A DNA stretch of 36,416 nt from an uncultured Neglectibacter sp. (lineage in GTDB: Bacteria > Bacillota > Clostridia > Oscillospirales > Acutalibacteraceae), in NCBI GenBank assembly GCA_904391645.1, contig CAJFMJ010000005.1, forward strand, positions 1 to 36,416. The letters run 5' to 3'. The translations under genes were made by a program, and so were the position numbers. Below the pieces are notes generated by a model, which saw only the letters and a program-made list of their open reading frames with translations, ran no database searches and had not been told where the DNA came from. This document shows, piece after piece, positions 1,421 to 30,965 of this stretch. The stretch's first letter is position 1, and each line of letters begins with the position of its first letter.

Positions 1421-1559
1421 GGGAACCTTCCAAACCATTCTCTTGGTAAGCCCTCAGCCAGAGCGTTCTCCCTTTCTCCGTACGCTTTTATTTTACCGGA
1501 TATCCTAGAATTCATTGCAAAAAAGTCCAAAAAGTATAAAAAGATACCAGAAAATTTCC

Positions 1560-1588
1560 TTGACCGTCCCCAGAAATCAGTGTACAAT
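1560..1588 (+). promoter_or_regulatory. sigma70-like promoter for the carboxylesterase gene
   Basis: TTGACC-N17-TACAAT, about 50 nt upstream of the RBS/ATG at 1641. Confidence 0.7.
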
Positions 1589-1640
1589 TTATCTCGGAGT
1601 GAATTGTAATGAAAATTTTTTTGTAGGAGGAACAACGGTT

Positions 1641-6305: not shown

Positions 6306-6371
6306 GGGAAAGCACTCCTTTCGAATTTTCGGATAGGACCTTACCGATTTATAAAACGTGCAAAGGCTTGC

Positions 6372-7811: not shown

Positions 7812-7829
7812 AGGGGCTCCTCCTCTCTC

Positions 7830-9916: not shown

Positions 9917-9930
9917 GGTGAAGCCCCCCA

Positions 9931-11031
9931 TTAGTCAAAGTAGATGGTCTTGCCGGTACGGGCAGACTCATAGATGGCATCCAGCACCTTGGTGACGGTC
10001 AAAGCCTGCTCGGGAGTGACGAACAGCTCGCCCTCGCCATACAGGGCATCCACCCAGATCTTGGCTTCTGCATCCTGAGGCATCACCATGGGGTTGCGGT
10101 CGATGGTGTTGGGACGGAACATGGGGAAGCCGCGGGTGGCGATCTTGGTATCCACCTTGCGGTTGGCCACCACGTGGTTGGCCACCACACCATTGTTCGC
10201 GTCGATACCGCCCTTTGTACCGCACAGGCGCACCATGCCCTCCACAGGTATGATATTCATCGCCCAAGAGCAGCGGATGTTGATCAAAGCGCCGTTCTTC
10301 ATGCGCACAAAGCCAAAGGCAGAGTCTTCCAGCTCATATTTCGCGGGATCCCAGTTGCCAAAATCGTTGCCCATTTCGTCCACAGTGGCCACAGGGCCGA
10401 TCTTATCGAAGGTGCAGCCAGTGACGCTGGCCACTTCGTAGTTGTTCATCATCCACAGGGTCAGGTCCAGAGCATGGGTAGCCATGTCGATCAAGGGACC
10501 GCCGCCCTGCTCGGCTTTGTTGGTGAACACACCCCAAGTGGGGATGCCACGGCGACGCCATGCAGTGGCCTCAGCGTAGTAGATATCACCCAGAGCGCCA
10601 GTGTCCACATAGGCCTTCATAGCCTTGTTGGCATCCATATGGCGGTACTGATAGCCAATGGTCAGCAGCTTACCAGTGCGCAGGTGGGTTTCATACATTT
10701 TCAAAGCGTCGGCGTAGGTAGCGGCCATGGGCTTCTCGCAAATGACGTGCTTGCCTGCTTCCATGGCAGCCACGGAGATCTCGCAGTGCTTTACGTTGGG
10801 GGTCAGCACGTGGACAGCATAGATGTCAGGGTCTTTCAGCAGTTCCCGGTAGTCGGTGAACACCTTGGCACCCTCGCAGCCATATTTTGCACGGGCTTCC
10901 TCTGCCCGCTCAGGGATAATGTCGCAGAAAGCATACATATCGATCCGGTCCCGCTGGGTAGCCATACCGGGGAAATGTTTGTCATTGGCGATACCGCCGC
11001 ATCCGATGAAGCCAATCTTTAATTTTTCCAT
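9931..11031 (-). CDS. Gfo/Idh/MocA family oxidoreductase
   Basis: N-terminal Rossmann GFIGCGGIANDKHFPGM; HVICEKPMAATYADAL (EKP motif); DMATHALDLTLWM. Confidence 0.95.
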   Translation of the reverse strand: MEKLKIGFIGCGGIANDKHFPGMATQRDRIDMYAFCDIIPERAEEARAKYGCEGAKVFTDYRELLKDPDIYAVHVLTPNVKHCEISVAAMEAGKHVICEKPMAATYADALKMYETHLRTGKLLTIGYQYRHMDANKAMKAYVDTGALGDIYYAEATAWRRRGIPTWGVFTNKAEQGGGPLIDMATHALDLTLWMMNNYEVASVTGCTFDKIGPVATVDEMGNDFGNWDPAKYELEDSAFGFVRMKNGALINIRCSWAMNIIPVEGMVRLCGTKGGIDANNGVVANHVVANRKVDTKIATRGFPMFRPNTIDRNPMVMPQDAEAKIWVDALYGEGELFVTPEQALTVTKVLDAIYESARTGKTIYFD

Positions 11032-11173
11032 ACAACTCTTTCTCCTTTACACTGAATTTTAGCGTTTCATACTCTTAAAGGATACTGCAAACCCAAATTA
11101 GTTGCATTCGAAATTAAGCAATTCTCTTTCAAAAAATTGCCCCTCCATCGCAAAAATCCAGGAAAAACAGATA

Positions 11174-11203
11174 CAAAAAGGCGGAGAAGCCTCCGCCTTT
11201 CTG
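11174..11203 (-). terminator. terminator after the ABC solute-binding protein gene
   Basis: Minus strand AAAGGCGGAG-GCTT-CTCCGCCTTTTTG. Confidence 0.85.
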
Positions 11204-11238
11204 TTCCGTTCTATTATTTTGCTTTGTCAAAGGACTGA

Positions 11239-12873
11239 TTAGCCCTGAGTGCTGTTGTAGCCCTCAGTGTAGATCTCAACCAGACGCTCGAGGCCCATCT
11301 TGTTCAGCTGGTCCTTATAAGCGTTCCACTTGTCGTCGGTCACGCCGTTCATGATGAAGTCGGCAACAGACTGCTGGACATAAGTGTTGATATCGGTCTT
11401 CAGGATGGTCAGCTCGTCCATGGTGACGGAGTCATACACGATGTAAGGCATACGGCTCTCGGGCAGGAACCACTCGCTGTAGTACACGTCGTTGTTGTAC
11501 TTTTCCTTAGCGTCGTTCTCGCCGCCGATGGTGGCAACGAAGTCATCGCTGGCCCAAGTGGGAGCATAGGTGTCCAGACCGGTCAGGAACTTGTACTCAG
11601 GATCGGTGTAGCCTTCGGGCACGTCCAGGAAGGCGGGGTTGCCATCGGCATCCTTCTCCACGCTGACGCCTTCGGAACCGTAGGTCAGCTGGAAGCCGTT
11701 ATACTGGTCGTAGCACAGGTTGACGAACTCGATAGCCTTCTCGATGTTCTCGCACTTAGTAGAGATGCACAGACGGTTGGGATACAGCTTGTAGAACCAA
11801 GCGCTGGAGTTCCAGTACTGGTCGCCGTTGGGGCCAGTCAGGGGAGCAATCAGCTCATAGTGCTCAATGTTGTCGCCCACGTTGTTGGACATGGTCCAGC
11901 CGGAGCCAGTGCCCATGATCAGGGTTTCGCCGCGGAACTTAGCAGCCTGAGTAGCGAAGTCCAGGCTGAAGTATTCATGGTCGATCAGATTCTCACTCCA
12001 CAGTTTGTTCAGCCACTCCACAGCAGCGCGGTAGTTGTCGGTGACAGGCTGGAACTGGGGAGCGCCGTCCACTACCATGCAGTAGGTATCGCTCTCGTTC
12101 ATCACAACGCCGAAAGCGGGGAATGCCCAAGCCAGGGTGCCGGCGCCCAGGGTAGGATCGCTGGGAGGAGCGCCAACGCCGGTGATGCCGATTTCATCCT
12201 TCTGGCCGTTGCCGTTGGGATCTTCGTCGCGGAACCGGATGAGCATATCATAGAACTCGTCGGTAGTGGTGGGGATGTCAATACCCAGCTGATCGCACCA
12301 AGTCTTGTTCACGTACAGGGTGTCGCCGGACTCAGGACGGAAAGCGATCATGTTGGGAATACCATACATCTGGCCGCTAGCAGTGGTAGCCATGGACTTG
12401 GCATCGGGAGTGGAATCCAGGAACTCCTTGATGTTGGGAGCCATGTCCAGATAGCCATTGGAATTCCAGTCGATGAACAGGCCGTCATCCACTTCGCCGT
12501 CTTCCAGGTCAGTGCCGAAGAAGATGTCGGGGATGTCGCCGGAAGCCAACAGCACGCTCTTATGAGTGGGCCAGTCAGCCTGGGACTCTACCTGCCAATC
12601 GATGGTAACGCCAGCCTCTTCTTCCAACTGGGTGATGATGGGATAGGGGAACTCACCATCGGTGCTGCTACGGATCAGCACAGCGGTCAGAGCGACGGTT
12701 TCACCAGAGGTGTCACCGGTATCGCCGGTATCGCCGGTGTCGCCGGATTCAGTGGTGGAAGAACCAGAGGTGTCACCCTCGCTGGTGGAGCTGTTTCCGC
12801 CATTGGAGCATCCGGCAAATGCGGACACAACCAGAGCCGCGGCCAGCAGAAGGGCCAAAACTTTTTTCTTCAT
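11239..12873 (-). CDS. extracellular solute-binding lipoprotein of a CUT1-type carbohydrate ABC transporter
   Basis: Signal peptide with lipobox MKKKVLALLLAAALVVSAFAGC, GDT-repeat linker, LplA-like body (DIPDIFFGTDLED, YGIPNMIAFRPESGDTLYVNKTWCDQLGI). Confidence 0.92.
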   Translation of the reverse strand: MKKKVLALLLAAALVVSAFAGCSNGGNSSTSEGDTSGSSTTESGDTGDTGDTGDTSGETVALTAVLIRSSTDGEFPYPIITQLEEEAGVTIDWQVESQADWPTHKSVLLASGDIPDIFFGTDLEDGEVDDGLFIDWNSNGYLDMAPNIKEFLDSTPDAKSMATTASGQMYGIPNMIAFRPESGDTLYVNKTWCDQLGIDIPTTTDEFYDMLIRFRDEDPNGNGQKDEIGITGVGAPPSDPTLGAGTLAWAFPAFGVVMNESDTYCMVVDGAPQFQPVTDNYRAAVEWLNKLWSENLIDHEYFSLDFATQAAKFRGETLIMGTGSGWTMSNNVGDNIEHYELIAPLTGPNGDQYWNSSAWFYKLYPNRLCISTKCENIEKAIEFVNLCYDQYNGFQLTYGSEGVSVEKDADGNPAFLDVPEGYTDPEYKFLTGLDTYAPTWASDDFVATIGGENDAKEKYNNDVYYSEWFLPESRMPYIVYDSVTMDELTILKTDINTYVQQSVADFIMNGVTDDKWNAYKDQLNKMGLERLVEIYTEGYNSTQG

Positions 12874-12924
12874 AGAATCTGCCTCCAAAAATATCCTTTA
12901 TTTCATATTTTCCTCGCAGGGGGA

Positions 12925-13824
12925 TCAACCCTTCACAGATCCGATCATAACTCCCTTCGCAAAGTACTTCTGGATGAACGGGTATACACACATGATCGGT
13001 ACGGTAGAAACCACGATCAGGGCATACTTGAGCATCTCAGCCTTGCGGACCACTTCCACAGAGCCGCCGGCATCCTTCTGGTTGTTGATCAGGATGGCGC
13101 GCAGGACCAGCTGCAGGGGCTTCAAGGCATCGGACTGGATATAAATCAAAGCGTTCATGTAGCTGTTCCACTGTGCAACAGCGGTATACAGGCCCACAAC
13201 CGCAATGATTGCTTTGGAAAGGGGCAGCACGATGGTGGCGAAGAATCGGAAGTCGGAACAGCCGTCCAAGTTGGCTGCCTCTCGCAATTCATCGGGGATG
13301 GTGCTGGCAAAGAAGGTGCGGGCGATGATCAGGTTGTACACACTGACGCTGGTGGGCAGGATCATGGCCCAGATGGTGTCCAGCATCCCCAGGCGCATCA
13401 CCTGCAAGTAGGTGGGCACCAGGCCGCCGTTAAAGTACATGGCGATCAAGAAGAAGATCATCAAGGGTGTGCGCAGGGGGAAATCCTTGCGGCCACACAC
13501 ATAAGCAGCGGGCAGGGTGAACAACAGGGCAAAGAAGGTGTTGCCCACGGTGTAGATGATGGTGTTGAGGTAGCCGACCCACACTTCTGTGCGGTGGAAC
13601 ACCTCTTCATAAGCCGACAAAGAAGGCTCCACAGGGAAGAACCACATCTCACCACGCTGGATGGCATCCGGGTTACTAAAGGATGCAATCACCACAAAGT
13701 ACAAGGGGTATACGATAACGATAAAGATCAATGCGCAAATGATGTAAGTGACCACTGTAAAGGTAAGGTCGGCCTTAGACATCTTCACTTTGTTTTTCGA
13801 TTTGCCGGTTGGCAAAGCAGTCAT
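12925..13824 (-). CDS. carbohydrate ABC transporter permease (LplC/MalG-like)
   Basis: ATG at 13824 behind GGAGGAG; EAANLDGCSDFRFFATIVLPLSKAIIAVVGLYTAVAQWN is the EAA-loop signature. Confidence 0.93.
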   Translation of the reverse strand: MTALPTGKSKNKVKMSKADLTFTVVTYIICALIFIVIVYPLYFVVIASFSNPDAIQRGEMWFFPVEPSLSAYEEVFHRTEVWVGYLNTIIYTVGNTFFALLFTLPAAYVCGRKDFPLRTPLMIFFLIAMYFNGGLVPTYLQVMRLGMLDTIWAMILPTSVSVYNLIIARTFFASTIPDELREAANLDGCSDFRFFATIVLPLSKAIIAVVGLYTAVAQWNSYMNALIYIQSDALKPLQLVLRAILINNQKDAGGSVEVVRKAEMLKYALIVVSTVPIMCVYPFIQKYFAKGVMIGSVKG

Positions 13825-13841
13825 TCCGCTCTCCTCCTTCC

Positions 13842-14795
13842 TTACATCAAGCTGGTGCCGGACATCTTCTTGCACACCCAGTTCGTAGCAGTCAGCAGAA
13901 TGATGTTGATGACTGTGTTGAACAAGTTGATTGCTGTGGAGAAGCTGTACTGGGCATTTTCCAAGCCGATCTTGTACACGTAGGTGGAAAGCACTTCGGA
14001 AACAGACACGTTCACAGTATTCTGCATCAAGTATGTCTTCTCAAAGCCGACGTTCATCAGGCTGCCGACAGCCATAATGAACATGATGGTGGCAGTGGGA
14101 AGCAGGGACGGGAAGTCGATGTAACGAATCCGCTGCAGTTTGGTGGCACCGTCGATCATGGCCGCCTCATACAGGGAAGGATCCACACCGGACAGCGTTG
14201 CCAGGTAGACAATGCTGGAGAAGCCGGTGGTCTGCCAAATGTTGGAAGCAACATACACAGTCCGGAACAGCAAGGGGCTGGTGTTGGGATCGATGGGGTT
14301 CTGCACACCCATCATGTCCATCAGGGCGCCATACAGGCCGCGCTCGGGAGAGAGGAACAGCTGCAGCATGGCAACCAGCACCACGGTGGAGATGAAGTAG
14401 GGCAGGTAGGTCACAGTCTGGATGGTGGCCTTGACCTTGGGCCGCTCCACCTGGTTGAGCATCAGAGCCAGCAGGACGGGGATCGGGAAAGACCACAGCA
14501 GGGAGTACAAGCTCAACAGCACCGTATTCCGGATGGTGGTGAAAGCATTGTACGAGTTGAAGAACCGCTCAAACTGTTGAAGTCCCACCCAAGGGCTGCC
14601 AGAGAAGCCCAGCGACGGGTTGTAGTTCTGGAAAGCCATTGTGACACCGTACATGGGGACATAGTTGAACAAGATGATGATGATTACAGCAGGCAGCACC
14701 ATGACGATGAGCTGCCAACATTTCAGCGTTTGGAAAAACGCCGCAGCGAATCTGCCTCTCTGCTTAGGCTTCAAGGCCGCTTCTTTTTTTGCCAT
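13842..14795 (-). CDS. ABC transporter permease (LplB/MalF-like)
   Basis: ATG at 14795 behind AAGGAGG; FQNYNPSLGFSGSPWVGLQQFERFF; EAAMIDGATKLQRIRYIDFPSLLPT EAA loop. Confidence 0.93.
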   Translation of the reverse strand: MAKKEAALKPKQRGRFAAAFFQTLKCWQLIVMVLPAVIIIILFNYVPMYGVTMAFQNYNPSLGFSGSPWVGLQQFERFFNSYNAFTTIRNTVLLSLYSLLWSFPIPVLLALMLNQVERPKVKATIQTVTYLPYFISTVVLVAMLQLFLSPERGLYGALMDMMGVQNPIDPNTSPLLFRTVYVASNIWQTTGFSSIVYLATLSGVDPSLYEAAMIDGATKLQRIRYIDFPSLLPTATIMFIMAVGSLMNVGFEKTYLMQNTVNVSVSEVLSTYVYKIGLENAQYSFSTAINLFNTVINIILLTATNWVCKKMSGTSLM

Positions 14796-15027
14796 GTGTT
14801 TTACCCCTCCTTGTTTTAATGTGGAATTAACAAGTTTTCGATCCTTTTGAAGGAAAAGCAAGCCATGGCAAGCCCGCTTTCCCGTGGCACATTGCATCTT
14901 CTGTGTAGGCATCACCCATCCTTTTCGGCACATTTACGATATACGGCAAGAGGGGGTCCACTGCCACCTCAAAGCCAGGCGACGCAAAGCCCTTCGTCCA
15001 GTTGCCAGCAAATGCCAACCACAGGGG

Positions 15028-15562: not shown

Positions 15563-16420
15563 TTACAGGCCCGGATCCTCCACCTCAATGGTGGCGCCAG
15601 CGGGAATGTTATAGGTCTTCTGCCCCACCAGCAGCCACAGCTCCGTGGCGGTGGGGTTGTAGATCTTGCTGCCGTCTGCGGAGTAGACCCGCTGACGGAA
15701 GGCCGTCACATAGTCGGCGATCTCCGTATTCCCGGCAAACCAGATCTCCTGGGAGAACTGGGATACGTACTTTACAAACTCCTCGATGACGTTCCAGTTG
15801 TTGTCGCCATCAAACTCATAGGCGTGGCCCCACAGGTAGAACAAAGAACCCGGGAACACACGGCCCTCGCAGAACTGCTTGGCCAGCTCCATCAACTGGG
15901 GATCGTTGTGGTGGCAGGTGGCGTGCCACTCCATAAAGTCCTGGGGGATTTCAAAGGTATGGGTGGAAACCACCGTGCGGGCCCCCATGTAGCCTGCCAT
16001 ACGCACCAGCTGCTTCACATCCTCGTTATAAGTGCCAAAGGGATAGGCAAAGAACCGAACCATTTTCCCAGAAAGCTTTTCCAAAGAGATCCGGTCCTCC
16101 ACCAACTCGTGCATCGCCAAGGAGGTGCCAATGTTGGGCAAGGAGGAGTGGCACAAGCTGTGGCCTCCCACCTCATGGCCCTCATACAGGGTGGCCACCT
16201 CTTCCGGGCTCACTTTGGAGATGTCCATATGCTTGCCTCCAAAGTTTGCCTCTGCCTGGATGCCCAGGGTGGCTGTGTTCAAGTTGAAAGTGCCTTTCAC
16301 GTGGTAGCGGTTAAACAATTCCACCAGCCGACGGTCCTGCACCACGCCGTCGTCGTAGCTGAAGGTCATTGCCCGGTTCTTGCCGCCGGGGAAGAGCATA
16401 AAATCAAGACGTTTTCCCAT
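15563..16420 (-). CDS. polysaccharide deacetylase family protein (NodB/CE4 fold)
   Basis: MTFSYDDGVVQDRRLVELFNRYHVKGTFNLNTATLG, VGGHSLCHSSL (HxxxH-like metal motif), VRFFAYPFGTYNEDV. Confidence 0.88.
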   Translation of the reverse strand: MGKRLDFMLFPGGKNRAMTFSYDDGVVQDRRLVELFNRYHVKGTFNLNTATLGIQAEANFGGKHMDISKVSPEEVATLYEGHEVGGHSLCHSSLPNIGTSLAMHELVEDRISLEKLSGKMVRFFAYPFGTYNEDVKQLVRMAGYMGARTVVSTHTFEIPQDFMEWHATCHHNDPQLMELAKQFCEGRVFPGSLFYLWGHAYEFDGDNNWNVIEEFVKYVSQFSQEIWFAGNTEIADYVTAFRQRVYSADGSKIYNPTATELWLLVGQKTYNIPAGATIEVEDPGL

Positions 16421-16460
16421 GTTCCATCACCTTTCTTCTTTTTGGGGGTTCCTCTCTTTT

Positions 16461-17651
16461 TTATTTGTGGGCCAGGCCCTGTTCTTTCAAAGCTTCGTAC
16501 ACCAAGTCCCGGATGTGGGGGTGGATCTCGGAATACACCTTGATCATCCCCAGCACCTGCTGGGTGTACACCACGCTCACATGGTTGACGGGATCCATCA
16601 AGGCGTAGGCGCCGGCAGCACCGTCCCAGCCGAACTCGCCCACAGGGCCTTGGGAGCCGTTGGGGTCGGTCATGGTGCGCACACCCAGGCCATACCCGTA
16701 CTCAAACCGGCCAGCACGGTGGAAGTCTGCCAGCTCGGCTTCGTTGAGCCAGTTGCGGGACCAGGTGGCGATGGACTCGGGGCTGAGGATGCGGACACCG
16801 TTGGCCCCCACGCCGCCGCAGCTGACGGCGTCCAGCACCGTGCTGTAGGCTTTCAGGGAGGCGGTCAAGCCTGCGCCGCCGCTTTCGTACAGGGGGGTCA
16901 CCCGGAAATTGTTCCCGGTGCCGGCGGTGACGATCGCCTGGGTCTTGAAGTCCACCGCGTGCTGGGCAAACTGGCGGTCCCGCTTCTCCCCGGGGAAATA
17001 CAGGGTGGCCTCATCGATGCCCAAGGGCTGGAAAATGTGGTTCTGGAGGTACTGGCCAAAGGTTTCGCCGCTGACCACTTCAATGACGGCCGCCATGATG
17101 TCGTGGCCCAGGCTGTAGGCCCAGTGGGTGCCGGGCTCAAACAGCAGCGGGGACTTGGCAATGGCCGCCACCACTTCCCGGGTGGTGGCCAAGGGGTTCT
17201 TCTTCAGCAGGTCCTGGATGGGGGCCGCGTTCAGGTTGTAGGAAAAGCCGCCGGTCATGGACATCAGGTGGTAGATGCACAGCTTGTTCTGGGCGGGGTG
17301 GCTGGGAGAATTCTCATCGGGCCACACAGGCGGGCCACCGGCGTCCATGCTGAAGTTGTCCGCCACTTTCATATCGGCAAACTCCGGCAGGTATTTGGAG
17401 AGCTCATCCTCCAGGCCGATCTTTCCCTGCTCCACCAGCTGCATCACAGCCAGCATGGTGACCACCTTGGTGCAGGAGTACAGGTCGTACAGCTCGTTGC
17501 CGGTGACGGGGCGCTTGCCCACAAAGTCGCTGCAGCCGGCGCTGTGGCGGTAGAGCACCTGATGGTCTTTCATCACCTGGCAGTCCAGCCCGGGGACACC
17601 ATAGCCCCCTTTCAGGCTGTCCAGGTATTCAGTCAATTTTTCAAATCCCAT
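16461..17651 (-). CDS. serine hydrolase (class C beta-lactamase-like)
   Basis: LYSCTKVVTMLAVMQLVEQGKIGLEDELSKYLPEF (SxxK), GTHWAYSLGHDIMAAVIE (YxL/YxN region). ATG 17651 with RBS GGAGGAG. Confidence 0.9.
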   Translation of the reverse strand: MGFEKLTEYLDSLKGGYGVPGLDCQVMKDHQVLYRHSAGCSDFVGKRPVTGNELYDLYSCTKVVTMLAVMQLVEQGKIGLEDELSKYLPEFADMKVADNFSMDAGGPPVWPDENSPSHPAQNKLCIYHLMSMTGGFSYNLNAAPIQDLLKKNPLATTREVVAAIAKSPLLFEPGTHWAYSLGHDIMAAVIEVVSGETFGQYLQNHIFQPLGIDEATLYFPGEKRDRQFAQHAVDFKTQAIVTAGTGNNFRVTPLYESGGAGLTASLKAYSTVLDAVSCGGVGANGVRILSPESIATWSRNWLNEAELADFHRAGRFEYGYGLGVRTMTDPNGSQGPVGEFGWDGAAGAYALMDPVNHVSVVYTQQVLGMIKVYSEIHPHIRDLVYEALKEQGLAHK

Positions 17652-17675
17652 GGGATCTCCTCCTCTTGATAGCAA

Positions 17676-17703
17676 AGGGCGGCCCGGCTGTACCGGGCCG
17701 CCC
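17676..17703 (-). terminator. GC-rich intergenic hairpin, possible weak terminator/processing site
   Basis: GGGCGGCCCGG-CTGTA-CCGGGCCGCCC perfect 11-bp stem; only a short T run follows on the minus strand. Confidence 0.5.
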
Positions 17704-17713
17704 AAAATGATCT

Positions 17714-18514
17714 TTAATTTTTGCCGAAATATTTGTCCATGGCCAGCTCGATCTGGGGATCCCAGAAAGCCCAGTTGTGGGCGCCGGGGGCAGTCACATA
17801 GGTGTGCTCCAGGCCCAGGGAATCGAAGTACTGGTGCAGGCTGTTGCTGGACTCGATGAGCATATCCTCAGTGCCGCAAGCCAAGTAGATCTGGGGCTTG
17901 GGAGAATCGCTCTCAGCCAGGGTCTTGGCAATGTACTGCATATCGCGGTCGCTGCCGGGGATCTCCTGGGGCTTGCCGAAAATGTGCTCATAGTAGGCAG
18001 CGGAAGCCATGAGGTTGTCCTCGTAGTGGTCCATCTTGGCCAGGTTGTCCGTAATGGCCGCAGCGGACAGGGCCACGATGCCGCCGAACAGCTCGGGGTG
18101 CTTCATGCCGTTGACCAAAGCGCCGTAACCGCCCATGGAGAAACCGCCGATGTAGGTGTCTTCCCGCTTGTCGCTCAAGGGGAACACACGCCGGCCGAAG
18201 TCGATGACCTCGCACAGGAACTGCTCATACATGGCGTCCCGCTTCCGGTCGTCCACATAGAAGCCATTCTCGCCGCTGGGGCACAGCACTGCCACATGGT
18301 ACTTCATGGCCAGCTGCTCAATGCGGGACCCGCGAATCCAGTCGGTGTGGGTGCCGGAAAAGCCGTGAAGCAGCATGATGGTCTTCATAGGGGCATCAGC
18401 CTGGTTGCGCAGCTCCTCGGGAATGCCAGCAGGCCTCTCAATAGGAACAATCGCAGTCAGCTCTGTGAGCCGGTGCAGCGAATTGGAAAACATGGTAGTG
18501 GTAAAAACGGCCAT
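17714..18514 (-). CDS. esterase family protein (esterase D/CE1-like alpha/beta hydrolase)
   Basis: MLLHGFSGTHTDWIRGSRIEQLA, YIGGFSMGGYGALVNGMKHPELF (GFSMGG elbow), GAHNWAFWD (catalytic His). Confidence 0.92.
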   Translation of the reverse strand: MAVFTTTMFSNSLHRLTELTAIVPIERPAGIPEELRNQADAPMKTIMLLHGFSGTHTDWIRGSRIEQLAMKYHVAVLCPSGENGFYVDDRKRDAMYEQFLCEVIDFGRRVFPLSDKREDTYIGGFSMGGYGALVNGMKHPELFGGIVALSAAAITDNLAKMDHYEDNLMASAAYYEHIFGKPQEIPGSDRDMQYIAKTLAESDSPKPQIYLACGTEDMLIESSNSLHQYFDSLGLEHTYVTAPGAHNWAFWDPQIELAMDKYFGKN

Positions 18515-19207: not shown

Positions 19208-19236
19208 TTGAAATGCTCCAAAAGATTTTATACTAT
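19208..19236 (+). promoter_or_regulatory. sigma70-like promoter for the phosphorylase-esterase operon
   Basis: TTGAAA-N17-TACTAT. Confidence 0.7.
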
Positions 19237-19237
19237 A

Positions 19238-19259
19238 TTCTCGAATCCAATTGCGAGAA
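19238..19259. promoter_or_regulatory. candidate operator (inverted repeat at the predicted transcription start)
   Basis: TTCTCG-N10-CGAGAA immediately downstream of the -10 box. Confidence 0.4.
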
Positions 19260-19273
19260 GACGGGAGAGCCTC

Positions 19274-20740
19274 ATGAAAAACATTGAAAACAAAGCTATG
19301 CTCATCACCTATGCGGACAGCATGGGCACCGACCTGAAAGCCCTGGACCGTGTGCTGGACAAGCACTTTGCCGGGGTGTTCGGCGGTGTGCACGTGCTGC
19401 CCTTTTTCCCCTCCTCCGGCGACCGGGGGTTTGCCGTGGTCAACTACGACATTGTGGACCCTGCTTTCGGCACCTGGGAAGACATCGACCGGCTGGGGGA
19501 GAAATATTACCTGATGGCCGACTTCATGCTCAACCATGTGTCCATCCGCAGCGAGGAGTTTAAGGACTACATGAAGAACGGGGAAGCTTCCCCCTATCGG
19601 GATATGTTCATCCACTGGAACGAGTTCTGGCCCGGCGGCGAGCCCACAGAAAAAGACCTGGAAACCCTGTATATGCGCAAGGCTCAGGGCCCTTACAAGG
19701 ACTTCACTTTGGAAAACGGCCAGACCGTCCGGCTGTGGAACACCTTCTTTGAGGAACAGGTGGACATCGATCCCTATGCCAAGGCCACTCAGGACTACTA
19801 CGACCGCAACCTGACCCACATTGCCAGCCATGTGCCGCTGATCCGTTTTGACGCATTGGCTTACGCCTCCAAGCGCCCCGGCACCACCTGCTTCTTTGTG
19901 GAGCCTGACATCTGGAAGGTGCTGGATATCGCCATGGAGCCCCTGCGGAAGACCGGCACCGAAATGCTGGCAGAGATCCACGAAAACTACATCATCCAGC
20001 AGAAAATGGTGGACCACGACTACTGGGTGTACGACTTTGCCCTGCCCATGCTGCTGCTCCACGGCCTGATGTCCGGCCGCACCGACCGGCTGATCCACTG
20101 GCTGAACATCTGCCCCCATCACCAGTTCACCACCCTGGACACCCACGACGGCATCGGCGTGGTGGACGTGGCCGGCCTGCTGGAGGAAGACGAGATCAAG
20201 CTGGTGTGCGAAAACGTGGAAAAGCTCACTGAGGAAGCCCGGAAATACATCAAGCTGCCCAGCACCATCAAGACCGACGGCAAAAAGGTCCGCCGCTACC
20301 AGCTGGGCACCACCTATTACTCCGCCCTGGACTGCGACGATGACGCCTACCTACTGGCCCGTGCAGTGCAGTTCTTCACCCCCGGCATCCCCCAGGTGTA
20401 CTATGTGGGCCTGCTGGCCGGCGAAAACGACATTGAAAACCTGAAAAATGGTGGGGAGCCCCGGAGCATCAACCGCCACAACTACTCCGAAGCGGAGATC
20501 GACCAGGTGGTGGAAAAGCCGGTTGTCCAGAAGCTGTGCAACCTGATGCGGTTCCGCAACCAGCACCCTGCCTTTAACGGCGACATCACTGTGGATCAGG
20601 ACAGCACCGGCGGCAAACTCCACATCCGCTGGGACAAGGACGGCGCTTTCGCTGCCCTGGATGCCAACTTCCAGGACAAGTCCTTCCAAATCACCTACAC
20701 CGACGTGGAAACCGGCGATACCAAGACCCTGGCTCTGTAA
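19274..20740 (+). CDS. GH13_18 glycoside phosphorylase (sucrose phosphorylase family; exact substrate uncertain)
   Basis: LITYADSMG, GVHVLPFFPSSGDRGF, LIRFDALAYASKRPGTTCFFVEP (nucleophile Asp), LAEIHENY (acid/base Glu), FTTLDTHDGIGVVDV, PGIPQVYYVGLLAGENDIE...INRHNY. Confidence 0.88.
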   Translation: MKNIENKAMLITYADSMGTDLKALDRVLDKHFAGVFGGVHVLPFFPSSGDRGFAVVNYDIVDPAFGTWEDIDRLGEKYYLMADFMLNHVSIRSEEFKDYMKNGEASPYRDMFIHWNEFWPGGEPTEKDLETLYMRKAQGPYKDFTLENGQTVRLWNTFFEEQVDIDPYAKATQDYYDRNLTHIASHVPLIRFDALAYASKRPGTTCFFVEPDIWKVLDIAMEPLRKTGTEMLAEIHENYIIQQKMVDHDYWVYDFALPMLLLHGLMSGRTDRLIHWLNICPHHQFTTLDTHDGIGVVDVAGLLEEDEIKLVCENVEKLTEEARKYIKLPSTIKTDGKKVRRYQLGTTYYSALDCDDDAYLLARAVQFFTPGIPQVYYVGLLAGENDIENLKNGGEPRSINRHNYSEAEIDQVVEKPVVQKLCNLMRFRNQHPAFNGDITVDQDSTGGKLHIRWDKDGAFAALDANFQDKSFQITYTDVETGDTKTLAL

Positions 20741-20793
20741 TCTGAAACAGTCCCCCTAGGGGACCTCTGAAACCCGGAAAGGAGGCTTACGCC

Positions 20794-21630
20794 ATGTCTA
20801 TCCTCACCTATAATTTTGAAAGCGAATACTTAAAGAACAACCATGAGGTCACGGTGATCCTGCCCGACAAGCCCCGCGCCCTCACCCCCGAAGAATTCTA
20901 CCGCAATGGCCGCAAGTACAAGGTCCTGTGGCTCCTGCACGGCACCTTCGGCGACCACAGCGACTGGGTGCGCAAAACCAACATTGAGATATACGCCACC
21001 GAGCGCAACCTGGTGGTGGTCATGCCCTCCGCTCTGAACTCCAGCTACGCCAACTGGGACAAGTTCATGATGGGCTTTGGGATGTTCGACTACCTCACCG
21101 AAGAGCTGATGCCCTTGATCTACGGATGGCTGCCTGTTTCCGACAAGCGGGAAGACAACTACATTGCCGGCCTGTCCATGGGCGGCCGCGGCACCATTAA
21201 GTTTGCCGTGAACCATCCCGACAAGTTTGCCGCTGCCGCTGTGCTCTCCGCAGCCCCGGTGGACTTCTCCCTGATGAGCCCCGGCAACCCCAACATGATG
21301 CTGGACTGCGCCAACCCCCGCACCCTGGCCTCCATCGAGAACGCCGGCGGCCTGGAAGCTTACCAGAACTCCTGCGAGAACGTGTGGGCCATCATCGACA
21401 AACTGGCCCCCACCGGCAAGCTGCCCCGGCTGATGTTCGCCTGCGGCACCGAGGACACCTTGATCTATGAGAACCTGCAGACCTTCCGCAAGCACTGCGA
21501 GGAGATCGGCTTGGATTGCCACTGGTTCATCAAGGAGGGCTACCGTCACGAGTGGCGCTTCTGGGATCTGGCCATCCAGGACGCTCTGGACTTCTTCGGC
21601 CTCACCGAGCGGGGAGGCAATCCGTACTAA
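20794..21630 (+). CDS. esterase family protein (esterase D/CE1-like)
   Basis: LWLLHGTFGDHSDWVRKTNIEIYA, YIAGLSMGGRGTIKFAVNHPDKF (GLSMGG elbow), CGTEDTLIYENL, YRHEWRFWD. RBS AAAGGAGG. Confidence 0.92.
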   Translation: MSILTYNFESEYLKNNHEVTVILPDKPRALTPEEFYRNGRKYKVLWLLHGTFGDHSDWVRKTNIEIYATERNLVVVMPSALNSSYANWDKFMMGFGMFDYLTEELMPLIYGWLPVSDKREDNYIAGLSMGGRGTIKFAVNHPDKFAAAAVLSAAPVDFSLMSPGNPNMMLDCANPRTLASIENAGGLEAYQNSCENVWAIIDKLAPTGKLPRLMFACGTEDTLIYENLQTFRKHCEEIGLDCHWFIKEGYRHEWRFWDLAIQDALDFFGLTERGGNPY

Positions 21631-21675
21631 GCAAAAGGTTTTGGAAACAACACTGGGAAGAAAGGATTGGTTCCA

Positions 21676-23262
21676 ATGAAAGAGCATTTGTTTGAAGACG
21701 CTTATGTGACCGTTGCCCAGGGCATCCTCCACGGCACGGTGGAAGACGGGATCAAAGTGTTCCGGGGCGTGCCTTACGCAGCATCCCCGGTGGGCGACCG
21801 CCGCTGGAAAGCCCCGCTGCCCCCCGCACGCTGGTTCGGCGTGCGCAAGGCTGACCGCTTCTCCGCAGGCGCTTTGCAGGTGGACACCCGCGCCGGTTGG
21901 AAAGAGGACTCCTTTGAGCTCTCCGCCGACATGGACTGTGAGGACTGCCTCTACTTGAACCTGTACACCCCCGCCCAGACCCAGGAGGAAAAACTGCCCA
22001 TCCTGGTGTGGCTCCACGGCGGCGGCATGGTGGCCGGCACCGGCATGGCCCCCTTCTTTGAAGGGGAAAAGCTTGCCCAGCAGGGGATCATTGTGGTGAC
22101 CATCAACTACCGCCTGGGCCTGTTCGGCTTTTTGTGCCATCCCGAGCTCTCCGCGGAAGCCCCCCAGGGCACCAGCGGCAACTACGCTCTGCTGGACGTG
22201 ATGCAGGCTTTGAAATGGCTCCAGGAAAACGCGGCCCAGTTCGGCGGCGACGCCAGCCGCATCACCGTGGGCGGCCAGTCCGGCGGCTCGGTGGGTGCCT
22301 CTTGCATCCTCATGTCCCCCCTGGCCCAGGGCCTGTGCAGCCAGATCATCATGGACAGCGGCTGCCCCACCATGGGCGGCATGATGGACGCCAAGTCCCT
22401 GGCTGAAATGGAAAAAGACGGCGCTGCCTTCGCAGAGAAGATCGGCTGCCACTCCCTGGCGGAGCTGCGCGCCATGGACGGCTGCGACCTGATGGAAGCC
22501 TGCACCCGGGAGGGCTATATGCCCAACTACTGCAACGACGGCTATGTGCTGCCCGCCGACCCCAAGGAGCTTCTCCCCAACGGCCGGTTCAACGATATGC
22601 GGTTCCTGGTGGGCTTCACCACCGAGGAGTTTGGCTCTTTGGGCTGCTCCCCTGACCTGGAGATCCAGCCGGAGAACTTCGAGAATTACATCCGCACCGT
22701 ATTCCCCGCGGACATGGTCCCTGCCATGCTGGAGCACTATCCTCACGGCACCTTTGATGAAACCCGCAAGAGCGTGCTCCATGTGCTCAGCGACCTGCTG
22801 TTCCTTTCCGCAGTACGGCTGGGCGCTGCCGCCGGGGAAAAGGGACTGCCCACCTTCGTGTACTATAAATCCCGGCCCGACGCTGGCGTGCGCGGCCAAA
22901 AGCTGGGCAGCACCCACTCCTCCGAGCTGCCCTACCTCTTTGGCCGCCCCCAGCCCTGTGCCATCAACCCTGCGGGCATGGACCAGGACGAGCAGGCCTT
23001 TGGCCGCCAGCTGCAGAACTACTGGGTGAACTTCGTCAAGAACGGCACTCCCAACGGGAAAAACGTGCTGGTGGAGTGGCCCCAGTGCACCAAGCTGTTT
23101 GAGTACATGGACCTGGGTGTGCACATCCATCCTGCCACCGAAGAGGAAACCAAGGTGCTGGAGCTGCTCAACGACCTGATGGACCAGCGGGGGGAAACCT
23201 CGGTGAAGCCCTATATGGACACCACCTCCCTGAACACCCCCGGCTTTATGCGCCGTCACTGA
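21676..23262 (+). CDS. carboxylesterase type B family protein
   Basis: GVPYAASPVGDRRWKAP, DCLYLNLYTP, WLHGGGMVAGTG, ITVGGQSGGSVGA elbow, HSSELPYLFG catalytic-His region. Confidence 0.95.
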   Translation: MKEHLFEDAYVTVAQGILHGTVEDGIKVFRGVPYAASPVGDRRWKAPLPPARWFGVRKADRFSAGALQVDTRAGWKEDSFELSADMDCEDCLYLNLYTPAQTQEEKLPILVWLHGGGMVAGTGMAPFFEGEKLAQQGIIVVTINYRLGLFGFLCHPELSAEAPQGTSGNYALLDVMQALKWLQENAAQFGGDASRITVGGQSGGSVGASCILMSPLAQGLCSQIIMDSGCPTMGGMMDAKSLAEMEKDGAAFAEKIGCHSLAELRAMDGCDLMEACTREGYMPNYCNDGYVLPADPKELLPNGRFNDMRFLVGFTTEEFGSLGCSPDLEIQPENFENYIRTVFPADMVPAMLEHYPHGTFDETRKSVLHVLSDLLFLSAVRLGAAAGEKGLPTFVYYKSRPDAGVRGQKLGSTHSSELPYLFGRPQPCAINPAGMDQDEQAFGRQLQNYWVNFVKNGTPNGKNVLVEWPQCTKLFEYMDLGVHIHPATEEETKVLELLNDLMDQRGETSVKPYMDTTSLNTPGFMRRH

Positions 23263-23280
23263 TCTTACAAGAAATAACCG

Positions 23281-23315
23281 AAGGGCCTGCCGCACTGCGC
23301 GGCAGGCCCTTTTTG
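23281..23315 (+). terminator. rho-independent terminator
   Basis: AAGGGCCTGCCGC-ACT-GCGCGGCAGGCCCTTTTT. Confidence 0.9.
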
Positions 23316-23512: not shown

Positions 23513-24556
23513 TTACAGCTTCTTATATACGTCCTGCATAAAGGCGTCCGCCAGGGGGATCCACAGCTCGAAGTTGGGATAATCCACCCGGCCGGTGAAC
23601 ACCTTGTCCCCAGCCATACCGTGAGGCACCCCGGCAAAGGTGTGGACTTCCACCTCCACGCCGTGGGCTTTCAAGTCGGGATAGACATACCGGAGGTTAT
23701 CCATGGCGGCATCCTCCCGGCCCACTGCAAAGAAGGTGGGCGGGTACACCACATTTTCGTAGTCGAAGGGATCGCCCACAAACCGCGGGCCATAAATGCA
23801 CAGGTTGGCAGCGGGGGTGGCGTCCAGCTCATCCAGCTCATCGGGGCGGTAGTCCGGGAAGGCATCCTTCACAGACTGCTTGCCGGAGAAGTACTGGATC
23901 AGCCCCTCCCCGGTGAGGCCGCCGTTGGAAAACCCGGCAAAGGCCACTTTCCTGGGATCGATGCGGTATTTCTCCGCGTTCTTCCGCACCATGCGCACTG
24001 CCCGGGCGGCGTCCACACCGGCCTCTTTCTGGGTCCAGGGGTTCTGGTTGGTACGGTTGAGCAACTGGAAGCACTGGTATCCCAGGGCATTCAAATCTTT
24101 GGCCACCTGGGTACCCTTCACCACAGACTCCCCATGGTCGCCGCCGGCACAGATCACCACCGCGCCCTTGGGGGTCACGTCCTCGGGGAGGAGCATCTCA
24201 TACAGGTAAGGGCGGAAATCCGGCTCGTGGTTATAGCGCATCCCGGAGTTGTCGGTGTACTCCGTTTCCGTGGGCATATTGCCCTCTTCCCACAGGTAGG
24301 TGCGGGGCTGGGCGTTTTCCACCGGCTGCAGGGCATCCAGCAGCTCTCCCAGCTTGACCACCTGGGCCTGGGTGTCGCCGTCAAAGGGCTTCCGGGTGAT
24401 GACGTTGTACAGGTTGGCGATCTCCACCACCTTCTCCAGGGGATACTGGACATTGTCCTCGCACACGGTGACGGCCCGGTTCTTCAGCGGCCCCAGTGCC
24501 TGATACACCGGCAGCATCCGCTTCCAAAGTTCCTCAAATTTGCTTCTGTCTGGCAT
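23513..24556 (-). CDS. alpha/beta hydrolase (dienelactone hydrolase/BAAT-like)
   Basis: VVICAGGDHGESVVKGTQVAKDLNALGYQCFQLLNR, KVAFAGFSNGGLTGEGL elbow, GVPHGMAGD catalytic-His region. Confidence 0.85.
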   Translation of the reverse strand: MPDRSKFEELWKRMLPVYQALGPLKNRAVTVCEDNVQYPLEKVVEIANLYNVITRKPFDGDTQAQVVKLGELLDALQPVENAQPRTYLWEEGNMPTETEYTDNSGMRYNHEPDFRPYLYEMLLPEDVTPKGAVVICAGGDHGESVVKGTQVAKDLNALGYQCFQLLNRTNQNPWTQKEAGVDAARAVRMVRKNAEKYRIDPRKVAFAGFSNGGLTGEGLIQYFSGKQSVKDAFPDYRPDELDELDATPAANLCIYGPRFVGDPFDYENVVYPPTFFAVGREDAAMDNLRYVYPDLKAHGVEVEVHTFAGVPHGMAGDKVFTGRVDYPNFELWIPLADAFMQDVYKKL

Positions 24557-24579: not shown

Positions 24580-25986
24580 TTATGGATTGGCTGTGGCGTG
24601 TTTTTTCACCTCTTTGTCTTTGGCAAGGTCAGCCACGCCGCGGATCTTTTTCACCCATTTCCCGCTGCGAAGCCGGAACACACACCACACAGCCTTGATG
24701 ATCTGGTCGGAATACAGGAACACGAACACCCAGAAAGCGGGCAGGTGCAGCACCAGCCCTGCCAAAGCCCCCAGAGGGATGGCAATGCACCACATGGTGA
24801 TGGTGTCAGCCAGGAAGAGGAACCGGGTGTCGCCGCCTCCACGAAGCACACCTTTTGTCAAGATGGAGTTGGTGGAGCGGAAGATGATGATGATACTGAT
24901 GGCGTCCATCAGCTGCTCTGCAATGAGCTTGGTGTCCGCCGTGATGTTGTAGGCATTGATCACAGGGGTGCGGATCAGGAAGGTGATGCCGCCGGCCAGG
25001 GCGCCGATCACAAGGCCCAGGATCAGGAATGTATACCCCTGGCGTTTGACCTTTGCCTGTTCGCCCTCGCCCAGGGTCTTGCCAATGATAAAGCAGCCGG
25101 AGTAGGACAAGCCGGTGATAAAGATGGTGCTGATACGCTGCACCACCACCGTGATGGCGTTGGCCGACACAAAGGAGGAACCGATGTGCCCCATAATGAC
25201 CGCCAACACATTGTCCCCCACGCCCAGCAAGCCGTCACTGAGCATCACAGGCACGCTCACCCGCAAAAACTCCCCCACCATGTCCCGGCAGGGCGAGAGC
25301 AAATCCTTCACCCGGTAGCGCACCCGCTGGTCCACCACCCAGAAATAGCCGCAGATCACAGCAGTTTCCACGATACGGGCGATGACCGTGCCCAAAGCCG
25401 CGCCGGCCACCCCCATGCGGGGTGCGCCGAATTTACCAAAGATGAAGATGTAGTTGCCCCCAATGTTGATGAGGAAAGCGCTGATGGATGCAATAAAAGG
25501 GATGTGGGTCAAGCCCACGCTGCGCATGATGTTGGTTGCCACCGTAGACAGCCCAGTGAGCAGGAAGGTAATGGTGGACCACCGCAGATAGATGGCGCCT
25601 TCCAGGATGACTTCCGTTTCTTTGGAATACAGGGACATGATCTGTTCCGGGACGGCAATGTTCACCACGGTGAACAAAAGCGCCAGCAAAATGCCAAACC
25701 GCATGGCCACGGTGATCACTTTTTTCAGGGACACGAAATCACGGGCGCCCCAAAAGCGGGAGGTCAGCACCGAGGACCCCATGCTGATCCCCATGCACAA
25801 GAACATGAACAACGAGATGAAGTGGTTGGCCAAAGACGAGGCGGAAAGGGCGGTTTCGCCCAGCTGCCCCAGCATGATGGTGTCCACCAGGTTTACGCCG
25901 GTGGTGATGATGCTTTGCAGCGCCACCGGCAGCGCGATCTTCGCCAGGTCCTTGTAAAAGGCCCCGTCGGTTTCAAAATACTTCAC
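24580..25986 (-). CDS. MATE family efflux transporter
   Basis: GTG start at 25986 behind AAGGGGAG; ALPVALQSIITTGVNLVDTIMLGQLGETALSASSLANH is the MATE N-terminal signature; ~12 hydrophobic segments. Confidence 0.93.
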   Translation of the reverse strand: MKYFETDGAFYKDLAKIALPVALQSIITTGVNLVDTIMLGQLGETALSASSLANHFISLFMFLCMGISMGSSVLTSRFWGARDFVSLKKVITVAMRFGILLALLFTVVNIAVPEQIMSLYSKETEVILEGAIYLRWSTITFLLTGLSTVATNIMRSVGLTHIPFIASISAFLINIGGNYIFIFGKFGAPRMGVAGAALGTVIARIVETAVICGYFWVVDQRVRYRVKDLLSPCRDMVGEFLRVSVPVMLSDGLLGVGDNVLAVIMGHIGSSFVSANAITVVVQRISTIFITGLSYSGCFIIGKTLGEGEQAKVKRQGYTFLILGLVIGALAGGITFLIRTPVINAYNITADTKLIAEQLMDAISIIIIFRSTNSILTKGVLRGGGDTRFLFLADTITMWCIAIPLGALAGLVLHLPAFWVFVFLYSDQIIKAVWCVFRLRSGKWVKKIRGVADLAKDKEVKKHATANP

Positions 25987-26243
25987 AACAAACTCCCCTT
26001 TTGCGGCCCTCTCCCCGGGCCAAATTTTAGTTGCAAATAACACTTTTAATAGTATATCATCTCATACAGTACATTGCAAGGCATCATGAGGTTTTTCGCC
26101 TATTTCCCACCGATCTTTTCCCAGAACAGGAAGCCCCTCCGGCTGCCTGGGCAGCCTATTGACGAGCGGCCGTTTTTTTGCTAGTATGGGGCTGAAAAGC
26201 ATGGCGCCCCACGGCTGGCGCCTCACAGGAAGGAGCGCACCCC

Positions 26244-28670: not shown

Positions 28671-30965
28671 TCAGCCCTTCAGCTCTACCCGGCGGATCTT
28701 GCCGGAGATGGTCTTGGGCAGGCTCTCCCGGAACTCCACAATGCGGGGGTACTTGTAGGGAGCCGTATTCTTTTTCACGTAGTTCTGGATCTCTTTCTTC
28801 AGCTCGTCGGTGCCTTCGGTGCCCTTGGTCAGCACGATGATGGCCTTGACCACCTGGCCGCGGACCGGGTCGGGGGCGCTGGTGACGGCGCATTCCAACA
28901 CGTAGGGCAGTTCCATGATGACGCTCTCGATCTCGAAAGGCCCGATGCGGTAGCCGGAGGATTTGATCACGTCGTCGGTGCGGCCCACATACCAGAAGTA
29001 GCCGTCCTCATCCTTCCAGGCGGTGTCACCGGTGTGGTAGACCCCTTCGTCCCAGGCTTCCTTGGTCTTTTCCTCGTCCCGATAATAACCCATGAACAGG
29101 CCGCAGGGGGTACCCTTTGTTGTGCGCACCACGATCTCGCCGGTTTCACCCACAGGGGCAGGGGTGCCGTCGGGCAGGATGATATCCACGTCGTACAAGG
29201 GGCTGGGCACGCCCATGGAGCCGGTCTTGGGCACAGTGCCCACGGGGTTGTACACCGTGAGGGTGGTTTCGGTCTGGCCGAAGCCTTCCATCAGGGACAG
29301 GCCGGTGGCCCGCTTCCACTGTTCATACACCTCGGGGTTCAGGGCCTCGCCGGCAGTGGTGGAGTACTCAATGGAGGACAGGTCATATTTGGAGAGGTCC
29401 TCCTTGATGAAGAACCGGTACATGGTGGGCGGCGCGCAGAAGGTGGTGATGTGGTACTTCTGGAACATGGGCAGGATGTCGTGGGCGTCGAACTTGTCAA
29501 AATCGTAGGTGAAGATGGCTGCCTCGTTCATCCACTGGCCGTAGTACTTGCCCCACAAGGCCTTGCCCCAGCCGGTATCGGAGATGGTGAAGTGCAGCCC
29601 TTCGGGGTTCACGTTGTGCCAATACTTGGCAGTGATGTAGTGGCCCAGGGCGTACTTGTAGTTGTGCTCGGCAATCTTGGGATAGCCGGTGGTGCCGGAG
29701 GTGAAGAACATCAGCATGGGGTCGCTGCCGCAGGGGGCATCGGGCTTGCGCTCATAGGTGTCGGGGAACGCTTCCACTTCCTTGTCGAAGTCGTGCCAGC
29801 CCAGGCGGTTTTTGCCCACCATGATCTTCACTTCCACACTGGGGCAGTTCTGGGCGGCCTTTTCGGCCTCGTCGGCCACCTGGCCGTCAGCGGTGCACAG
29901 GATGGCTTTCACTCCCGCCGCTTTAAAGCGGTAGTCGAAGTCGTGTTCCATCAGCAGGTTGGTGGCGGGGATGATGATGGCGCCCATTTTATGCAGGGCG
30001 GTGATGACCAGCCAGAACTGGTAGTGGCGCTTCAAGACCACCATCACCCGGTCGCCCCGCTTGATGCCCAGGCTCTCCAGGTAGTTGGCCGTCTGGGAGG
30101 ACAGCCGGCTGATATCCGAGAAGGTGAAGCGGCGCTCGGTCTTGTTGCTGGACACATGGAGCATGGCAAGCTTGTCAGGGGATTTCTCCGCCAGCTTGTC
30201 CACAATGTCAAAGGCAAAGTTGAACTTCTCCTCGTTTGTAAACTGGATGCCGTTCAAGATGCCGTTTTCGTCCAGGGTGGTCTTCACAAAGGGGGAGGAA
30301 ACCGTTTCCCGCTCCTGGCGGGCCAGCTTCTGGTCGATGAGCTTCTGGAAGCGGTCCTGTTCCGGGGCAAACTCCTCGCTGCCCTTGAGCACAATGGCGT
30401 AGATCTGGCACTCTTCCCCGCCGGTGGCGATCATGCCGTGGGGGGTGGCAGAGTTGTAGTAGATGGAATCCCCTGCGTGGAGGGTTTCAATGTGGCTGCC
30501 CACCTGCATTTTCATGGTGCCCTTGATGACGATGTCAAACTCCTGGCCCGCGTGGGTGGAGAGCTTGATGGCCACGTTCTGCTGACTCTCCTCATAGGGC
30601 ATGGTGACAAAGAAAGGCTCGGCGGTCTTGTTTTTAAACAAGGGGGCCATATTCAGGTATTTAAAGCCCTGGCGCCGGGTGATGGGCAGGCCGTCGCCCC
30701 TGCGGTTGACGGTGTAGGTGGACAGGGTGGGGGAAACGCCTTTGATCAGGTCAGTGGGGTCAATGCCAAAGCGCTGGGCGCACTTATAGATGAAGGTGAA
30801 GCTGAAATCCTTCTCCCCTGCTTCGCACTGTTCATACTCCTCCCGGCTCACCCCGGTGCATTTGGCCATTTCATCCAGGGAAAGGCCGGTGATCTCCCGC
30901 ATGGTGCGGATGCGTTCCGCCACCTCGGCGAGCTGTGTTTTCAGATCTGTTTTTTCCATATCCAT
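28671..30965 (-). CDS. three-domain XRE-type HTH + cupin + AMP-dependent acyl-CoA synthetase/ligase
   Basis: N-term HTH IRTMREITGLSLDEMAKCTGVSREEYEQCEAGEKDFSFTFIYKCAQRFGI; cupin AGQEFDIVIKGTMKMQVGSHIETLHAGDSIYYNSATPHGM; AMP-binding MFFTSGTTGYPKIAEHN, GFGQTETT, YHTGDTAWKDEDGYFWYVGRTDDVIKSSGYRIGPFEIES, C-terminal KTISGKIRR lysine. Confidence 0.93.
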   Translation of the reverse strand: MDMEKTDLKTQLAEVAERIRTMREITGLSLDEMAKCTGVSREEYEQCEAGEKDFSFTFIYKCAQRFGIDPTDLIKGVSPTLSTYTVNRRGDGLPITRRQGFKYLNMAPLFKNKTAEPFFVTMPYEESQQNVAIKLSTHAGQEFDIVIKGTMKMQVGSHIETLHAGDSIYYNSATPHGMIATGGEECQIYAIVLKGSEEFAPEQDRFQKLIDQKLARQERETVSSPFVKTTLDENGILNGIQFTNEEKFNFAFDIVDKLAEKSPDKLAMLHVSSNKTERRFTFSDISRLSSQTANYLESLGIKRGDRVMVVLKRHYQFWLVITALHKMGAIIIPATNLLMEHDFDYRFKAAGVKAILCTADGQVADEAEKAAQNCPSVEVKIMVGKNRLGWHDFDKEVEAFPDTYERKPDAPCGSDPMLMFFTSGTTGYPKIAEHNYKYALGHYITAKYWHNVNPEGLHFTISDTGWGKALWGKYYGQWMNEAAIFTYDFDKFDAHDILPMFQKYHITTFCAPPTMYRFFIKEDLSKYDLSSIEYSTTAGEALNPEVYEQWKRATGLSLMEGFGQTETTLTVYNPVGTVPKTGSMGVPSPLYDVDIILPDGTPAPVGETGEIVVRTTKGTPCGLFMGYYRDEEKTKEAWDEGVYHTGDTAWKDEDGYFWYVGRTDDVIKSSGYRIGPFEIESVIMELPYVLECAVTSAPDPVRGQVVKAIIVLTKGTEGTDELKKEIQNYVKKNTAPYKYPRIVEFRESLPKTISGKIRRVELKG

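Follow-up and report, generated by a model that had tools for sequence, protein, structure and literature searches.

In a 36,416-nt stretch of DNA from an uncultured Neglectibacter sp. (the window; G000:C5:1-36416, part of a fragmentary metagenome-assembled genome [MAG] of 1.83 Mb that is 82% complete), three complete, collinear genes on the + strand encode a GH13_18 phosphorylase, then a PF00756 esterase and then a type-B carboxylesterase. From the genes present here and at related loci, we consider it probable that these three genes form the core of a conserved cytoplasmic unit for imported acylated α-glucosides, most likely plant acyl-sucroses. The association between phosphorylase and esterases is conserved well beyond the window. 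Judged by its sequence, the phosphorylase differs from canonical sucrose phosphorylases (SPs) and belongs to an uncharacterized clade of GH13_18, the loci of which (clade loci) were compared with other GH13_18 loci (control loci). All of the evidence is sequence-based, and gene calls were made with a simple codon-usage caller.

Phosphorylase and esterases at conserved loci

The three genes and the signals that flank them are as follows.

19208-19236, + strand: candidate σ70 promoter, TTGAAA-N17-TACTAT, 37 nt upstream of the start codon
19274-20740, + strand: GH13_18 glycoside phosphorylase, 488 aa (TIGR03852, 611 bits; cutoff, 334)
20794-21630, + strand: CE1/PF00756 esterase, 278 aa (PF00756, 56 bits; cutoff, 22)
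21676-23262, + strand: type-B carboxylesterase, 528 aa (PF00135, 318.7 bits; cutoff, 27), with the nucleophile elbow GQSGG (GxSxG)
23280-23312, + strand: strong bidirectional intrinsic terminator, a 14-bp stem followed by T

Esterase genes were far more frequent around the clade phosphorylases than around other members of the subfamily: 75 lay within 5 kb at 21 clade loci, compared with 12 at 31 control loci, corresponding to densities of 3.88 and 0.40 per 10 kb (Mann-Whitney, p = 4e-9), and two or more esterases were found at 18 of the 21 clade loci but at only 4 of the 31 controls. A Pfam scan of the neighbors, which covered a large part of the loci and was independent of our own protein clusters, likewise placed PF00756 in 31 of 129 clade neighbors and in 6 of 110 control neighbors. 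The enrichment does not simply reflect esterase-rich genomes, because in six genomes that possess both kinds of locus, 37 esterases were counted at the clade loci and 4 at the paralogous GH13_18 loci. About eight esterase families are represented at the clade loci (CE1, PHB-depolymerase-like, type-B carboxylesterase, β-lactamase fold, HSL, S9-like, SASA and CE4). By a simple hydrophobicity test these esterases lack signal peptides, whereas the solute-binding proteins have them, and an ABC sugar transporter is present at most clade loci.

The most constant partner is the esterase encoded at 20794-21630. Orthologues with 61-73% identity occur at 18 of the 22 other clade loci and at none of the 31 control loci, where no protein exceeded 35%. 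Residues S128, D221 and H252 are invariant across the 18 orthologues, and the mirror-tree correlation between esterase and phosphorylase (r = 0.815; reached in 0 of 5000 permutations) indicates that the two have diverged together, with a contribution from host relatedness. The score above the PF00756 cutoff and the Ser-Asp-His residues identify the protein, at the sequence level, as a CE1-like esterase. The initial annotation had called it esterase-D-like, which holds only at the level of PF00756, since the esterase D/S-formylglutathione hydrolase model TIGR02821 gave 46.1 bits against a cutoff of 281.7. Its closest solved relatives are the small-acyl esterases 4rgy and 7l0a/6vh9 and the tributyrin esterase 2uz0. 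The carboxylesterase at 21676-23262, correctly recognized as type B from the outset, has homologues at clade loci L024 and L049. In L040, a Butyrivibrio MAG, the genes again follow the order GH13_18, CE1, carboxylesterase, although the carboxylesterase in this position is a different one and not the closest relative of that in the window. A search for conserved co-occurrence, suggested in the initial annotation, thus returned both the CE1 partner and the three-gene order. Gene conservation strongly supports the idea at its center, that a phosphorylase and intracellular esterases act together on a disaccharide imported in acylated form.

The gene arrangement itself agreed with the earlier description of three collinear genes with short gaps and a final terminator: the distances from stop codon to the ATG used are 53 nt (phosphorylase to CE1) and 45 nt (CE1 to carboxylesterase). 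The predicted absence of a signal peptide from all three proteins was also reproduced by the hydrophobicity test. The promoter string is present as described, but promoter-type sites occurred in the scan at 4 per 10 kb against 3.9 expected by chance; because the match count equals the chance expectation, the string alone is no evidence and was rejected as support for an operon. Position 19208, given as the start of the unit, is that of the −35 hexamer, and the first gene starts at the ATG at 19274. A short inverted repeat without a T run (GTCCCC-CTAG-GGGAC, 20742-20770) lies between the phosphorylase stop codon and the esterase start codon and is possibly a transcript-processing or stability element.

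Loop A and the phosphorylase clade

The window enzyme has the retaining catalytic residues of GH13 subfamily 18 (nucleophile D193, acid/base E234 and transition-state stabilizer D292) and its glucosyl subsite, and by these features of its sequence it is a member of the subfamily. The subsite −1 and catalytic set (D50, F53, H88, R190, D192, E232, H289, D290 and R399 in BaSP numbering) is intact in 23 of 23 clade sequences. Specificity within the subfamily is read from loop A (BaSP 339-347), for which the published motifs are N(L/V)D(I/L/V)YQ in SP, GFDVHQ or KXXYYQ in the two types of sucrose-6F-phosphate phosphorylase (SPP), VGAIYQ in glucosylglycerol phosphorylase (GGoP), and Glu together with (T/S)ETN in glucosylglycerate phosphorylase (GGaP) (PMC7178133, PMC6720575).

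Loop A of the window enzyme, K338-V-R-R-Y-Q343, matches neither the SP motif, which was absent from all 23 clade sequences, nor either SPP motif, nor that of GGoP; the GGaP signature is likewise missing, the enzyme having AEIHENY in place of (T/S)ETN at β5 and Gln343 in place of the loop A Glu. Two clade members, L031 (KFQYYQ) and L042 (KAQYYQ), match KXXYYQ locally, yet they group within the new clade and not with the SPPs. The equivalent of BaSP D342 was present in 30 of 30 canonical SPs and that of N340 in 29 of 30, whereas neither was found in any of the 23 clade sequences, in which loop A is also several residues longer than the canonical one and contains a conserved proline. A GH13_18 enzyme with another odd loop A (KPVVYQIE; L127, G389 contig 195) lies on a long branch outside the clade.

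A genome scan with a single protein query returned no relatives, and these were recovered with an alignment that included the G169 orthologue. In the alignment-based scan, further clade sequences were 62-72% identical, and the next group, the canonical SPs, was at most 52% identical. The 23 sequences come from Lachnospiraceae, Oscillospirales and Paenibacillaceae; Paenibacillus daejeonensis, Cohnella fermenti and Herbinix hemicellulosilytica are cultured members of the clade. The clade was monophyletic (support 99/99), with no reference enzyme inside it, in a maximum-likelihood tree that also contained BaSP and two further SP-type structures, TtSPP, IcSPP, GGoP, YcjM, 31 other GH13_18 genes and 10 SPPs. 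It was thus separate from the characterized SPs as represented by 1r7a, 7qqj and 7qqi, the only SP-type references in the tree, all three with solved structures.

The label "sucrose phosphorylase" derived from TIGR03852 was rejected as evidence of specificity, because the model includes this divergent clade and cannot separate specificities. An assignment as SPP, suggested by an Arg at BaSP position 134, was also rejected, because canonical Firmicutes SPs share that Arg. Earlier loop A outliers of GH13_18 led to new specificities or acceptors, namely those of SPP, GGaP and GGoP (PMC7178133). The present clade is a further, well-populated outlier that carries the SP label in databases, and its neighborhood supplies a concrete substrate hypothesis.

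The sugar core and the proposed route

In the route that we propose, the ABC sugar transporter would import a low-molecular-weight sugar ester; non-secreted esterases of several families, with the CE1 partner (20794) almost always among them, would remove acyl groups from different positions; and the GH13_18 enzyme would then phosphorolyze the freed α-glucosyl bond, releasing glucose 1-phosphate. That the bond is split by phosphorolysis, that the core is sucrose and that the steps run in this order are presumptions. Esterases without export signals next to an ABC importer suggest the uptake of small acylated molecules, and cleavage of one glycosidic bond seems to suffice, because no glycoside hydrolase (GH) family ranked in the top 25 Pfam families by frequency in the clade neighbors. 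The acyl groups may be phenylpropanoid, acetyl or of another kind; in natural phenylpropanoid sucrose esters, the sucrose bears both cinnamoyl and acetyl groups (PMC11397724).

The support for a sucrose core is indirect. An AgaSK-type kinase and a strict SPP (KNxYYQ) lie in the same cluster at L024, L108 and L109, and the pair occurs in 8 of 23 clade genomes but in none of the 119 other family genomes; in R. gnavus, such a kinase and SPP are known to form a sucrose-phosphorylating route (PMC6521584). At L107 (G714 contig 29), one 780-aa ORF preceded by a GH36 gene joins a sucrose-kinase domain to a strict-type SPP; this fusion and its position suggest that the kinase at the clade clusters is a sucrose kinase. 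In the window's own genome, a strict SPP (KNVYYQ loop) adjoins the kinase, and next to these two genes is that of an esterase of the BD-FAE family. Finally, an ordinary SP, an ABC transporter, CE1 and HSL esterases and a fructokinase form one run at L114, and also at L115 and L116, which we regard as a second candidate type of acyl-sucrose operon; the gene order at L114 (8133-15655) is solute-binding protein, two ABC genes, CE1, HSL esterase, SP and fructokinase. A further contig binned with the window's genome (C189, locus L026) carries a GH13_18 fragment, a SASA esterase, two solute-binding proteins and a two-component system. It was set aside as evidence, since its GC content of 40%, compared with 57-61% elsewhere in the genome, indicates that it is probably mis-binned.

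Several observations weigh against this reading. A fructokinase gene was found within 10 kb of none of 21 clade loci, compared with 10 of 31 controls (p = 0.003), which, together with the altered loop A, disfavors free fructose as a product. While the initial annotation was right to place the enzyme in the family of SP, in that it belongs to GH13_18, the missing fructokinase and the absence of the SP fingerprint from all 23 sequences do not bear out SP specificity. Because L024 and L108 also hold the sucrose kinase and SPP, the substrate of the new enzyme may be a different one, and the genome background of the kinase comparison was taxonomically uneven. No close CE1 partner was present in the stretch examined at L024, L034, L042 and L049. 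In addition, the clade sample (at least 23 sequences) came from one peptide-pattern scan, which may favor close relatives. The altered acceptor loop could reflect either a sucrose that is still acylated on fructose or a different acceptor altogether. If the sucrose were deacylated on the glucose moiety but kept acyl groups on fructose, a sucrose core would be compatible with the missing fructokinase and the changed loop A.

The different acceptor is the strongest competing explanation, though we regard it as unlikely: the unit would be of the same type, but its substrate would be an acylated α-glucoside with an aglycone other than fructose, such as a glucosyl-glycerol-like compound, a glucosyl-acid or an ester of an α-linked disaccharide. 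It would account for the lack of the SP fingerprint and of nearby fructokinases, as well as for the separate sucrose kinase and SPP alongside at L024, L108 and L109, and has a precedent in the new acceptors of earlier loop A outliers (PMC7178133). However, the hallmarks of the described non-sucrose enzymes, VGAIYQ of GGoP and the Glu of GGaP, are absent as well, and sucrose is suggested by the esterase loci that come with kinase/SPP or with SP/fructokinase. It is very unlikely that the unit serves membrane glycolipids, with α-glucosyl diacylglycerol being deacylated and the resulting glucosylglycerol phosphorolyzed. Although GGoPs exist in GH13_18 and the glucosyl subsite is conserved, the GGoP motif is lacking, the esterase set includes carbohydrate esterases of the CE4, SASA and CE1 types instead of lipases, and a sugar ABC transporter, in some cases joined by the sucrose kinase and SPP, is encoded at the loci. 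Least probable of all is an ordinary SP with esterases as chance neighbors, which the above-cutoff score with the NCBIfam equivalog model would favor, but that model does not discriminate specificity, loop A fails the SP motif, and the esterase enrichment and partner conservation exclude a chance neighborhood.

Returning to acylated sucrose and related glucosides, we tentatively propose, with slightly less than even confidence, that the clade represents a new GH13_18 specificity, for fructose-acylated sucrose or an as yet unnamed acylated α-glucoside, which together with its conserved esterase partner constitutes an undescribed bacterial route for the use of plant acylsugars. A literature search on bacterial degradation of acyl-sucroses and phenylpropanoid sucrose esters found no described pathway among the papers searched. 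If the proposal is true, Firmicutes of the gut, rumen and soil would have a defined route for using acyl-sucroses of plants and sucrose esters with phenylpropanoid groups, and the clade enzyme may serve as a tool for making glucosides of bulky acceptors.

Further hydrolases in the window and closest known systems

Beyond the three genes, which had been described as the whole unit, the window contains additional hydrolases that make up a larger esterase island, at 15563-18514, 23513-24556 and 1536-3221, together with transporter genes.

1536-3221, + strand: second type-B carboxylesterase (PF00135, 284 bits)
11239-14933, − strand: solute-binding lipoprotein and two ABC permeases (PF00528 in both), candidate importer
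15563-16420, − strand: CE4-type deacetylase without signal peptide (PF01522)
16461-17705, − strand: β-lactamase-fold serine hydrolase, family VIII esterase-like, with an SCTK motif (PF00144, 179 bits)
17714-18514, − strand: second CE1 esterase, transcribed divergently from the three genes (PF00756)
23513-24556, − strand: α/β hydrolase (Abhydrolase_3), possible further esterase (PF07859, 40 bits)
24580-26043, − strand: MATE efflux transporter (PF01554)

The simple hydrophobicity test found no N-terminal signal in the hydrolases of the window, whereas the solute-binding protein has one. Homologues of the β-lactamase-fold hydrolase occur at 9 clade loci (the best being 48-53% identical) and at no control locus, those of the CE4-type deacetylase at clade loci L031 and L108, and the nearest homologues of the second CE1 esterase are at other GH13_18/esterase loci (L116, L132, L114 and L115). 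The second carboxylesterase is 35% identical to the clade-locus carboxylesterases of L024 and L040, and clade locus L108 has a gene 50% identical to that of the MATE transporter. Membership of the α/β hydrolase in the unit is uncertain because it has no relative at the other loci. The ABC permeases share about one third identity with their counterparts at clade loci; their link to the unit is uncertain, because the transporter also heads a run of oxidoreductase and epimerase genes. This run (4812-14933, − strand) comprises, in the same direction, the ABC sugar transporter, a Gfo/Idh/MocA oxidoreductase, a GlcNAc 2-epimerase-like protein, a xylose-isomerase-like TIM barrel, an aldehyde dehydrogenase and a β-lactamase-fold protein; in its gene types it resembles the oxidoreductase/isomerase cluster ycj of E. 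coli and could represent a distinct sugar pathway. A 764-aa protein encoded at 28671-30965 fuses an HTH-cupin regulator to an AMP-binding domain of the acyl-CoA ligase type.

Among characterized enzymes, SP (EC 2.4.1.7; 7qqj and BaSP, 1r7a) is of the same subfamily; the window enzyme is about 50% identical to lactic-type SPs and shares their full catalytic and glucosyl-binding set, but the clade differs in lacking N(L/V)D(I/L/V)YQ, in its longer loop and in its neighborhood. The SPPs (TtSPP, 6s9v; IcSPP, 6s9u; and the R. gnavus enzyme with AgaSK) also belong to this subfamily, have the Arg at BaSP position 134 in common with the window enzyme and, as strict SPP with kinase, co-occur in some clade clusters, whereas the window enzyme lacks a GFDVHQ or KXXYYQ loop and the tree clades are separate. 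The ycj cluster of E. coli, which encodes the GGaP YcjM, likewise combines a GH13_18 phosphorylase with a sugar ABC transporter, but it has no annotated esterases, its enzyme carries the loop A Glu and the ETN motif, and it is distant in the tree. In the β-mannan locus of Roseburia intestinalis, acetylated oligosaccharides are imported, two intracellular esterases that complement each other remove the acetyl groups, and phosphorolysis follows (PMC6385246). That locus has a β-mannan core, GH130 phosphorylases and SGNH-type esterases, and its core enzymes are not homologous to those described here; what the two systems would share is ABC import of an acylated sugar, intracellular esterases and a phosphorylase.

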